Shown in pieces: positions 10,243 to 13,892 of a DNA stretch of 64,000 bases; the first letter of the stretch is position 1; every line of letters begins with the position of its first letter. Under the pieces are notes generated by a model, which was given only the letters and a program-made list of their open reading frames with translations, had not been told where the DNA came from and ran no database searches. The stretch comes from Mageeibacillus sp. (GTDB lineage Bacteria > Bacillota > Clostridia > Saccharofermentanales > Saccharofermentanaceae), in the NCBI GenBank assembly GCA_022484595.1, contig JAKVLB010000003.1, forward strand, positions 1-64,000, in the 5' to 3' direction. The position numbers and the translations under genes are program-made.

Positions 10243-10279
10243 CAAAAAACGTCCTGAACTTCTGATAAAGTTCAGGACG
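10243..10279 (-). terminator. T-box terminator hairpin
   Basis: CGTCCTGAACTT and AAGTTCAGGACG form an 11-12 bp stem with a short loop, followed by six T residues on the minus strand. The left arm (CGTCCT) can instead pair with the AGG of the T-box sequence, which is the expected antiterminator switch. Confidence 0.92.
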
Positions 10280-10466: not shown

Positions 10467-10496
10467 ATAGTACAACATTCGCGGCATTCTTGTCAA
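10467..10496 (-). promoter_or_regulatory. Promoter of the aspS T-box leader
   Basis: On the minus strand there is a consensus TTGACA (10496-10491), an 18-base spacer, and TACTAT (10472-10467). This places the transcript start near 10460, at the beginning of the T-box stem I. Confidence 0.8.
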
Positions 10497-10523
10497 TTGA
10501 AAACTAACCGCAAATACACAGCA

Positions 10524-11648
10524 TTATCCTCTCGGACCGCCGTCCCTGCCGCCTCCAGATTTGTAACCGCCTCTGCCAAAGCCGCCGTGTGAGGACCCGC
10601 CTCTTGAGCCGTAACCTCCGCGATTGCCGCCACGAGAAGAACCGTCTCTTGAACCGTATCCGTCTCTTGAACCGCCTCTGCCAAAGCCGCCGCGTGAAGA
10701 GCCCTCTCTTGATCCGTAACCGCCTCTTGATCCGTAACCGCCGCGATTGCCGCCGCGAGAACCTTCGTCACCTGAACTGCTGTCCCTTGAGCCGAAACCT
10801 CCGTGACTTGAACCGTATCCGCTTCTTGAACCGCCTCTGACAAAGCTGCCATGTGAGGAACCGTCTCTTGAACCGTATCCGCCTCTTGAGGCATAACTGT
10901 CTCTGCCATAACCTGATGACGAACCGTTACTTTCGGAATCTGAACCATTTCCGTCATGGCTATATCTCCCGAATCCGCCCCTTGAACCGCCGTCCCTTGA
11001 GCCGTAGCCTCCACGGTCACCGCGTCCACCTCTGTAACCGCCTCTGGAACCGCCTTCTCTTGAACCGTAGCCGCCGTGGCCTCTGCTATAGCCGCCTCTT
11101 GATCCGTATCCGCCGTCTCGTGAACCGCCGTTTCTTGAACCGTAGCCGCCGCGCGAGGCACCGTAACCGCCTCTGCTGCCTGTCTCTGCTGTATCGCCGG
11201 CACCTTCGGACTTCATAACGTCCGCCGCAGAATCTTCTCCGCCGGAAGCTCTGCTCCCGTCATCGCTGAATCTTCTGTATCCGCCGTCTCTTGCACCGTA
11301 TCCGCCTCTTGAGCCTCCGCGGGAACCATAACCGCCTCTCGAACCGCCGTCCCTTGAACCGTAGCCTCCGCGTCCGCCGCTGTAGCCGCCCCTTGAGCCG
11401 CCTCTCGGACCTCTGTCTCTTGAACCGTAACTGTCTCTTCCGTAGCTGTCATTCTCTGAACCGCGGTCAATGTTCTCATTTCCGTCGTCTTCAGTATTTG
11501 CAGCGCCTTCAGCATCAGCTGACCTGTCATGATTATAACGGTCACCGTTGCCATAGCTTCTGCCGCTGCCGTACCTGCCTCCTGAAACGTTTCTCGAACC
11601 GCTGCCGTAGGAATTACCGCGCTCATATCTTCTGCGTCCGCCGCCTGC
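10524..11648 (-). repeat. Degenerate coding repeats of the RNase R tail
   Basis: About 1.1 kb of short, imperfect GC-rich repeats encode GGYGSRGG-like units. The opposite strand and the other frames are also open for long stretches here because the repeat lacks stop codons; those frames are not genes. Confidence 0.9.
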
Positions 11649-13535
11649 CTTGTCGGGATCAACATCGTCTTCAAGCGCAAAATCAATCCTGTTGAGCTCC
11701 AGATCTACATTATCGACGATAACACTGACCTTCTGTCCGATGTTTATTTCAGTGCCGGAATGAGCACCGGTGGCACAATAATGTCTCTCATCGAAATAGT
11801 AATGATCCTTCAGTGTGCGGAAAGGAACAAAACCCTCTGCTGAACTCGGAAGTATTACAAAGAAACCGGAATCGATGATAGACGATACTCTGCCTTCAAA
11901 ATGCTCTCCAACCTTTCCTGACATAAATTCGCATACCTTGATGTCTACAGAAGCGCGCTCCGCGTCAACAGAGTTGCGTTCCATATCGGAAGACTGGTCA
12001 GCCGCACGGTCAACAAGTCCTCCGAAATGAGCGCGTTTATCCTCATTATGAAGATAACTCTTGATAATCCTGTGAATATAAAGGTCAGGATAACGGCGGA
12101 TAGGACTTGTGAAATGGCAGTAGAATTTTGAAGCAAGTCCGAAATGTCCAAGACATTCAGAACTGTAACGGGCCTTGGCCATGGATCTGAGCAAAAGCTC
12201 ATCAAGAACCGGCTTGGCATCTTCAATCTCAATCGACTCCATAAATCTCATAATGTCAGTCGGCTCAATCTTGCCGTAAAGGCGGCCCATGGCACCGAAT
12301 CTTTTCGCTACTGAAGCAAACCGCGCGAGCTTAATCGGATCCGGATCCTCGTGAACGCGGTAAACAAACGGATAATTCATTGATGCATATGTCCTCGCAA
12401 CGAATTCATTTGCGCAGATCATGAACGATTCGATGATTCCGTGGGTAAAATTGGTCGGATATGGCATTACATCGGCAACAGTGCCGTCTTCATTAAGAAT
12501 AACCTTGGTCTCCGGGAATTCAAACCTCAGAGCGCCGCGCTTCTCGCGCATTGCCTTAAGGATATCCGACAGCTCATGCATCTGCTTCAGCATATCAACA
12601 ATAGGGCCGTACTCGGCAGTATCTCCTTCTGCCGGTTCGGTAAGAATCCTGTAGCACTCGTTATAGCTCATGCGCCTGTCAGACCTTATGACACTCTCAT
12701 AAATCTCACCGTCATAGGTACTGCCCTCACGGTCAACAAGCATTTCGCATGTCAGTGTAAGCCGGTCAACAGCCGGATTAAGACTGCAAAGCCCGTTTGA
12801 AAGCTTGGGCGGAAGCATCGGAATAACTCTGTCTACAAGATAAACCGATGTGGCGCGCTTGAAGGCTTCATCGTCAAGTGGGTTTCCTTCTCTGACATAA
12901 TTTGACACGTCGGCAATATGAACCCATAGCTTGTAATTGCCGTTTGGAAGAATTTCAAGTGAAATTGCATCGTCCAGATCCTTTGCTTCTTCGCCGTCGA
13001 TTGTGATGGTAAGGAGATCTCGAAGGTCATGCCTTCCCGACTTGATTTCTTCCTCAACAGTCTCCGGATCGGGATTTACAGGCAGAGGCTCTACCTCATT
13101 CATGACCGATTCAGGGAAAGACTGTTCAAGACCGTACTGACGAAGCACGGAGAGCATTCTGACATCGTTACTTCCGATGCTGCCGAGGACTTCCTTGATA
13201 TTGCCGCGGCACTTGCCCTTCTCTGCTTCAGGATTCAATACCTCACAGACAACCAGCATGTCAAACGGCGCGCCGTTAAGATGATTATTGTCAATAGCAA
13301 CAGCCCCAAAATTAGTTGTTTTGAAAGTGGCCTCAGGAATGACAACACCGCCGTCTTCCGTCTGGCGAAGCATTCCAACAACCTGATTTGTTACCTGAAG
13401 AGGTCCACGTGGCAGTACATCAGCGAGACACTGGGGACGCTCCGGAGCTTCTTCTCCTGTAGCCTTTATAGCTTTGCTGAACTTTCTGTGAGGTGCGCCT
13501 CTGTATTCTCCGTTATTTCTGTAAAATTGTGTCAT
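10524..13535 (-). CDS. rnr: RNase R (RNB family exoribonuclease) with long RGG/Gly-rich tail
   Basis: The 1003-residue protein has a normal RNase R core and an exceptional tail. Residues about 40-150 form a cold-shock-like OB domain. The RNB domain follows with TIDGEEAKDLDDAIS (active-site aspartates) and HFTSPIRRYPDL. An S1 domain runs from about 545 to 622. From about 630 to 1003 the chain is almost only Gly, Arg, Ser, Tyr, Asp, in GYGSRGG and SRGGYGSRDG-type repeats. The usual N-terminal helix-turn-helix domain is absent. RNase R degrades structured RNA 3' to 5'. RGG tails bind RNA and can drive condensate formation elsewhere; that role is inferred here. It is transcribed from its own extended -10 promoter after the secG terminator. 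Confidence 0.95.
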   Translation of the reverse strand: MTQFYRNNGEYRGAPHRKFSKAIKATGEEAPERPQCLADVLPRGPLQVTNQVVGMLRQTEDGGVVIPEATFKTTNFGAVAIDNNHLNGAPFDMLVVCEVLNPEAEKGKCRGNIKEVLGSIGSNDVRMLSVLRQYGLEQSFPESVMNEVEPLPVNPDPETVEEEIKSGRHDLRDLLTITIDGEEAKDLDDAISLEILPNGNYKLWVHIADVSNYVREGNPLDDEAFKRATSVYLVDRVIPMLPPKLSNGLCSLNPAVDRLTLTCEMLVDREGSTYDGEIYESVIRSDRRMSYNECYRILTEPAEGDTAEYGPIVDMLKQMHELSDILKAMREKRGALRFEFPETKVILNEDGTVADVMPYPTNFTHGIIESFMICANEFVARTYASMNYPFVYRVHEDPDPIKLARFASVAKRFGAMGRLYGKIEPTDIMRFMESIEIEDAKPVLDELLLRSMAKARYSSECLGHFGLASKFYCHFTSPIRRYPDLYIHRIIKSYLHNEDKRAHFGGLVDRAADQSSDMERNSVDAERASVDIKVCEFMSGKVGEHFEGRVSSIIDSGFFVILPSSAEGFVPFRTLKDHYYFDERHYCATGAHSGTEINIGQKVSVIVDNVDLELNRIDFALEDDVDPDKAGGGRRRYERGNSYGSGSRNVSGGRYGSGRSYGNGDRYNHDRSADAEGAANTEDDGNENIDRGSENDSYGRDSYGSRDRGPRGGSRGGYSGGRGGYGSRDGGSRGGYGSRGGSRGGYGARDGGYRRFSDDGSRASGGEDSAADVMKSEGAGDTAETGSRGGYGASRGGYGSRNGGSRDGGYGSRGGYSRGHGGYGSREGGSRGGYRGGRGDRGGYGSRDGGSRGGFGRYSHDGNGSDSESNGSSSGYGRDSYASRGGYGSRDGSSHGSFVRGGSRSGYGSSHGGFGSRDSSSGDEGSRGGNRGGYGSRGGYGSREGSSRGGFGRGGSRDGYGSRDGSSRGGNRGGYGSRGGSSHGGFGRGGYKSGGGRDGGPRG

Positions 13536-13640: not shown

Positions 13641-13892
13641 TTACCAATATCTTGCAACTGCCAAATAGAGAACAATGGAAACTACCGCGAAAGCAACACA
13701 GCATATGACGGTCCAGCGCTTGAGCTGTTCTTCAAGAGTCCTGCCCTTCGCCTTACTGTAGTATGAATCTGTCGTAGCACCCGTAACGGCACCAAGTCCC
13801 TGATCATTACCTTCCTGAACAAGGAATAATACAATAATCGCAATAGCGAATAAGATATCAATTATAGAAAGAACTATCTGCAGAGCGCTCAT
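13641..13892 (-). CDS. secG: Preprotein translocase subunit SecG
   Basis: This 83-residue protein has two membrane helices (about residues 3-23 and 57-77) joined by a polar loop containing FLVQEGNDQGLGAVTG, the conserved SecG block. SecG assists the SecYEG channel. GGAGG lies before the ATG. The gene is a single unit with its own promoter and terminator. In Firmicutes secG is often upstream of rnr, as here. Confidence 0.93.
   Translation of the reverse strand: MSALQIVLSIIDILFAIAIIVLFLVQEGNDQGLGAVTGATTDSYYSKAKGRTLEEQLKRWTVICCVAFAVVSIVLYLAVARYW

Follow-up and report, generated by a model that had tools for sequence, protein, structure and literature searches.

Is an RNase R that carries 381 residues of RGG-rich sequence behind its catalytic core a new kind of system, or is it an extreme form of a known element? 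And what might the extra sequence do? The question is raised by a gene in a 64,000-nucleotide stretch of a Mageeibacillus sp. genome (contig JAKVLB010000003.1), which we analysed whole and refer to as the window. The initial annotation of this DNA described an RNase R core that lacks the usual HTH domain and ends in a very long RGG/Gly-Arg-Ser tail, and it proposed that the tail might concentrate the enzyme in an RNA-degradation body. The gene is laid out as follows.

10524..13535, reverse strand: RNase R gene, 1003 amino acids, ATG start (open reading frame, Pfam and NCBIfam)
13434..13535, reverse strand: N-terminal leader, residues 1-34, where HTH and CSD1 would be (pLDDT and start of the TIGR02063 match)
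13113..13301, reverse strand: CSD2 cold-shock domain, residues 79-141 (Pfam PF17876)
12048..13034, reverse strand: catalytic RNB domain, residues 168-496 (Pfam PF00773, 372.9 bits)
11676..11915, reverse strand: S1 domain, residues 541-620 (Pfam PF00575)
10527..11669, reverse strand: predicted-disordered RGG/GYGSR tail, residues 623-1003 (composition and AlphaFold2)

We count the tail from residue 623, the end of the aligned core, which gives 381 residues. (The interval 10524-11648 holds residues 630-1003, or 374 residues, and the stop codon.)

The core is that of an RNase R, as had been proposed. The protein scores 634.2 bits against the NCBIfam model for RNase R (TIGR02063), above the curated equivalog cut-off of 597.85; its score against the RNase II model (TIGR02062) is 174.1 bits, well under the cut-off of 641.9. 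CSD2 lies N-terminal of the RNB domain and S1 lies C-terminal of it (Pfam), which is the order found in bacterial RNase R (TIGR02063 and the structures from B. subtilis, 8CDU; E. coli, 5XGU; and Mycoplasma genitalium, 7DIC). Asp180, Asp186, Asp188, and Asp189 are invariant in 23 aligned sequences, this one included, and an alignment finds them in B. subtilis RNase R as well. We take these four residues to be the catalytic metal ligands of the family. AlphaFold2 gives the core a mostly confident fold, and we predict from the sequence that the enzyme is catalytically intact. It is the sole RNB-domain match in the 1.92-Mb genome (E <= 0.001). Besides the four aspartates, it shares with the three structurally characterized proteins a basic unstructured C-terminal extension. 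It differs from them in lacking HTH and CSD1, and in that its extension is 381 residues long, nearly free of lysine, and rich in RGG and GYGSR. The closest named records are metagenome-assembled genomes labelled Saccharofermentans, Mageeibacillus, Clostridiales, Clostridia, or Ruminococcaceae, many of them from rumen or faeces; these records do not support an origin among the Lachnospiraceae.

The absence of HTH had been noticed in the initial annotation, rightly, but this understates the case: CSD1 (Pfam OB_RNB) is missing too, and the loss extends to nearly the whole family. In the studied protein, the match to TIGR02063 begins at profile position 136 of 711, and leader residues 1-31 have pLDDT below 50. 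In nearly every complete RNase R listed for the family, the match likewise starts only at about positions 133-160 of this profile. OB_RNB was found in 0 of 3 relatives (L002, L020, and L024), versus 2 of 2 proteins from outside (L032 and L139). Because of these profile starts and the lack of OB_RNB in all three relatives, we conclude from the sequences that the loss of HTH and CSD1 is probably old and common to nearly the whole family. As a family trait, the absence of HTH says nothing special about this protein. There are some exceptions. The match in G025 extends up to profile position 92 with no stop, matches in G020, G065, and G070 reach positions 60-73 through stop codons only, and G111 has a separate short fragment (on contig C210) that matches positions 3-120. 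Also, two genomes from another genus of the family (G087 and G088) have longer open frames upstream of the RNase R core. There (L099, 189-2405, and L100, 770-2809), leaders rich in Lys, Ser, Gly, and Arg replace HTH and CSD1, with no domain recognisable by reading; basic low-complexity character can occur at the N-terminus of RNase R, too. HTH and CSD1, which contact the 30S in B. subtilis RNase R, are usual but not obligatory features of these enzymes. In B. subtilis, the 30S anchor of RNase R is probably HTH (PMC10901742), and a review describes some RNase R homologs with rudimentary accessory domains (PMC12320835).

The tail consists of 131 Gly, 66 Ser, 58 Arg, 32 Asp, 29 Tyr, 13 Ala, 13 Asn, 3 Lys, and further residues, and its motifs are far more frequent than composition would give. 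It holds 24 RGG (2000 composition shuffles: mean 6.8, maximum 17), 12 G[YF]GSR (same number of shuffles: mean 0.11, maximum 2), 25 GSR (again 2000 shuffles: mean 3.5, maximum 12), and 25 [GS][YF][GS] (composition shuffles: mean 9.4, maximum 18). In the AlphaFold2 model, residues 628-1003 all have pLDDT below 50, and there is no secondary structure past residue 630. In other words, RGG motifs are clustered above chance in a predicted-disordered region, as in RGG-motif tails. The tail is also predicted to be unstructured and is rich in arginine, like the K/R-rich C-terminal region of RNase R, though lysine is nearly absent. There are 35 aromatic residues, at a median spacing of 9. The 44 acidic versus 61 basic residues leave a net charge of +17, which is modest for the length, and these charges form no blocks beyond chance (59% of 5000 shuffles are at least as blocky).

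The combination of RGG and [G/S]Y[G/S] motifs with Arg/Tyr stickers is characteristic of eukaryotic FUS-type low-complexity regions, and the tail resembles the Gly-Arg-Tyr repeats of animal RNA-granule proteins. We do not claim common descent. Unlike the FUS-type regions, the tail is joined to an exoribonuclease, and a search of the PDB with the tail returned only one FUS peptide, at a non-significant E = 3.5. Within the genome, the tail search returned only the tail itself. At the DNA level, the pattern GG[YF]G[S-like][R-like] occurs at 17 sites in the genome, of which 11 are in the tail and 6 are scattered singly (reversed control: 0). A looser pattern was uninformative, with 33 sites versus 49 for its reversed control.

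How unusual is this tail among close relatives? Core matches were found in 82 of the 85 genomes of the genus (3 had none). One of these proteins is cut off (G071) and another is split over contigs (G035), which leaves 80 readable ends. The studied tail is the longest of the 80: the other 79 range from 1 to 208 amino acids, with a median of 55 and quartiles of 34.5 and 70. These tails occupy the same position and are mostly rich in Gly, Arg, Lys, and Ser, and 34 of the 79 contain at least one RGG. They differ from the studied tail, with its 35 aromatics and 24 RGG, in having few aromatics (18 at most, in G044) and about as much lysine as arginine. The ratio K/(K+R) is 0.05 in the studied tail, versus a median of 0.47 in the 76 other genus tails of at least 20 amino acids. 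The counts include the 112-residue tail of G020 and the 26-residue tail of G070 as they stand; G070 may be frameshifted. (In G020, locus L079, the frame appears to change near the end of the tail, which gives a hydrophobic last stretch.) Two matches with no open frame across them (L033 and L034) and two truncated ones (L029 and L030) were left out. Outside the genus, 10 of the family's 30 genomes were included.

In a quick maximum-likelihood tree, the studied protein groups with six relatives whose tails are 26-60 amino acids long (SH-aLRT 89). The tree comes from a quick search without bootstrap, with 88 of 90 rows (G059 and G066, represented by a C-terminal piece only, were excluded), and the studied protein is among its long branches. 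Two tails exceed 150 amino acids, and on this tree they need two separate changes. The second longest tail, with 208 amino acids (G044, locus L078), lies elsewhere on the tree, is made of different, lysine-rich repeats of Lys, Gly, Phe, and Glu, and apparently grew independently.

We also looked for long tails beyond the genus. In a sample of the phylum, 101 of 159 genomes, the studied one among them, have a match at E <= 1e-60. From the other 100 we read 20 tails: all 19 with an open frame of 775 or more, and G492. Six of these 20 tails are 156-245 amino acids long, so the longest is shorter than the studied tail. One family (f100) has tails of 198-245 amino acids with 3-6 RGG in 3 of 3 sampled members (L139, L140, and L141). 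They are rich in Gly, Arg, and Lys, and resemble the studied tail in Gly/Arg richness and RGG. But they are 9-15% lysine and at most 1% tyrosine, they do not have the GYGSR repeat, and their cores match the profile from position 3. (All three cover the profile from HTH to S1 and share the motif FGSGKGGY.) Another long tail from the phylum (G538) is rich in Lys and Arg and has 2 RGG. As far as these sequences tell, long basic RGG-bearing tails arose in other RNase R lineages too. Nevertheless, none of the 79 genus tails and 20 phylum tails that we read is equally long, Tyr-rich, or Lys-poor.

Searching with the tail itself gave only the tail's own match, both in the class (1 of 291 genomes at E <= 1e-5) and in the genus (1 of 85 genomes at E <= 0.01), so no donor of the tail is visible. 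A caveat is that the genus search misses short or diverged tails, including the short RGG tails of the relatives. Among the papers listed by a literature search, titles and the beginnings of abstracts did not mention an RGG-tailed RNase R, which is no proof of absence because the subscription literature lies mostly outside the scope of that search. The term RGG occurs 0 times in a 2025 review of RNase R (PMC12320835).

The initial annotation knew of no RGG tail of this length in described bacterial RNase R, and the length is indeed extreme. The kind of tail is less exceptional, since a basic tail is standard in RNase R and RGG occurs in 34 of the 79 other genus tails and in all sampled members of f100. 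Compared with these sequences, the tail is best read as an extreme, Lys-poor, Tyr-rich enlargement of a known RNase R element. It is the far end of a natural series of tail lengths rather than a new kind of system.

This series bears on an element of RNase R that is poorly understood. A K/R-rich unstructured C-terminal region distinguishes RNase R from RNase II (PMC12320835). The E. coli enzyme needs its K-rich domain to engage tmRNA-rescued ribosomes, and work cited in the same paper ties it to RNA affinity and to the degradation of structured RNA (PMC3949413). Yet the K/R tail gives no density in the B. subtilis 30S complex (PMC10901742), and the review concludes that the K/R tail plays no universal part in binding ribosomes (PMC12320835). 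A genus with tails of 1-381 residues on a conserved core, in a family without HTH and CSD1, offers a ready-made series in which to study tail function. It is suited to asking whether an Arg/Tyr-rich tail alters RNA capture or causes condensation.

What might the enlarged tail do? We give about an even chance to the proposal that the basic tail was enlarged into an Arg/Tyr-rich disordered arm, which would give this exonuclease, devoid of HTH and CSD1, a multivalent RNA tether. Duplication of GYGSR/RGG-type units within a short basic C-terminal tail would have produced the 381-residue arm. Ancestry from a basic tail is suggested because the 79 other genus tails have a median of 55 amino acids, 34 of them have RGG, and the six relatives that group with the studied protein have short basic tails of 26-60 amino acids. 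The arm would be a tether of low specificity that captures structured RNA or ribosomal particles and holds them near the exonuclease channel. It would take over part of the anchoring that is done elsewhere by HTH, CSD1, and the K/R tail, and it may also cluster where the local concentration of RNA is high. The RNA- and ribosome-anchoring roles of the K-rich domain in E. coli and of HTH in B. subtilis support this proposal. A tail is not needed to make up for the lack of HTH, because some HTH-less relatives have a tail of only 1 amino acid (G029 and G049 in the genus and G093, G097, and G101 in the family). Several points count against a tether: the missing 30S density in B. subtilis and the lack of a universal role in ribosome binding (PMC10901742 and PMC12320835, as above), a net charge of only +17 over 381 residues, and the presence of the tail in one genome only.

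An alternative that we consider rather unlikely, if quite conceivable, is that RNase R, by virtue of its tail, scaffolds an RNA-degradation condensate, which would be held together by Arg-Tyr stickers and RNA and would concentrate enzyme and substrate. The 58 arginines, the 35 aromatics, and the low K/(K+R) relative to the genus all fit this idea: phase separation of disordered regions is promoted more by Arg than by Lys and, in polar surroundings, more by Tyr than by Phe, with Tyr acting as a strong sticker (PMC12677899). There is also a precedent in Caulobacter, where the scaffold region of RNase E forms BR-bodies (PMC7509114). RNase E, too, is a ribonuclease whose C-terminal region is long and disordered, but it is a different enzyme, and the likeness to it lies in general layout rather than in a comparison of tails. 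However, the charges of the studied tail are no more blocky than chance, searches of the genome with the tail and with a DNA pattern found no second protein with such a tail that could share an RGG body, and RNase R is low in abundance in B. subtilis (PMC10901742). The condensate proposed in the initial annotation is thus favoured by the Arg- and Tyr-rich, Lys-poor composition, but a tether that does not condense accounts for the data equally well.

A bolder form of the condensate proposal, which we consider unlikely, is that a bacterial 3'-5' exoribonuclease came to carry a FUS-like Arg/Tyr scaffold of its own, so that the nuclease itself would nucleate an RNA-degradation condensate in a lineage without the anchoring domains HTH and CSD1. 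The repeated growth of RNase R tails would then be a route to RNA bodies.

It is also unlikely, in our view, that the tail is a near-neutral expansion, in which slippage or unequal recombination lengthened an already disordered, rapidly evolving tail, and the result was tolerated without a new function. Within the genus, tails change length very readily (1-208 amino acids in 79 genes), and the two tails above 150 amino acids need separate changes on the tree and have different repeat units. Exact DNA repeats in the studied tail reach 24 bp, near the upper limit of what synonymous shuffling gives (5 of 200 shuffles have one as long). The tail also favours the codons AGA, TCA, TAC, and GAC more strongly than the core does, which fits copying from one founder unit. 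On the other hand, lysine has nearly been lost and tyrosine gained relative to the genus. Only in the RNase R frame do the repeats vary more at synonymous than at non-synonymous sites, which is a mild objection, and the order of motifs is far above composition shuffles, though copies of a founder unit would give the same.

Much less probable is that the tail is an enlarged docking arm for SmpB-tmRNA and still serves non-stop mRNA decay as the K-rich domain does in E. coli. The genome does encode SmpB, and SmpB is bound by the S1 domain and K/R region of E. coli RNase R (PMC12320835). But the E. coli determinants are E740-K741 and K749-K750, within residues 735-750 (PMC3949413), and the studied tail has just 3 lysines in 381 residues.

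All these proposals take the tail to be real, and several observations bear on this. No stop interrupts its reading frame, and its GC3 of 0.483 is close to the 0.471 of the core. Comparison of the tail repeats gives pN/pS values of 0.44-0.56 in the RNase R frame versus 0.94-1.48 in the two other forward frames. (These values come from DNA-similar 12-codon segments within the tail, which overlap and are non-independent, so they indicate a direction and are not a formal test.) The tail looks coding, because it has no stop, its GC3 is core-like, and pN/pS is low in the RNase R frame only. The genome is in 12 contigs and is 99% complete. An assembly error in the repeat, which had been raised as a concern, is unlikely, because the longest exact repeat of 24 bp is shorter than any usual read length and because synonymous codons differ between the repeat units. 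A false tail, from misassembly or a frameshift, is very improbable: the DNA is of low complexity, a second forward frame is nearly open (1 stop), and the relative G020 seems to shift frame within its tail, but the exact repeats are short, GC3 equals that of the core and pN/pS is below 0.6 in the RNase R frame alone, and the relatives' tails are rich in Gly, Arg, Lys, and Ser in the frame of the core. Variation at third positions in the GYGSR units was dropped as evidence of selection, as the units were chosen by their amino acids. Other open frames lie beside or opposite the tail (10493-11203 and 11213-11686 on the reverse strand, 10589-11695 on the forward strand). These long overlapping frames are probably by-products of the tail's low-complexity composition.

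Two features flank the gene.

10250..10279, reverse strand: terminator-like hairpin of 13 pairs followed by a T-run, 245 bp past the stop codon (a weak candidate, by consensus match only)
13641..13892, reverse strand: upstream open reading frame of 83 amino acids, SecG-like by reading of its translation (open reading frame list)

Terminator-like sites are slightly more frequent in the region than in shuffled sequence (5 versus a mean of 3.3), and promoter-like sites show no excess there (3 versus a mean of 3.9). The gene order secG-rnr occurs in Firmicutes.
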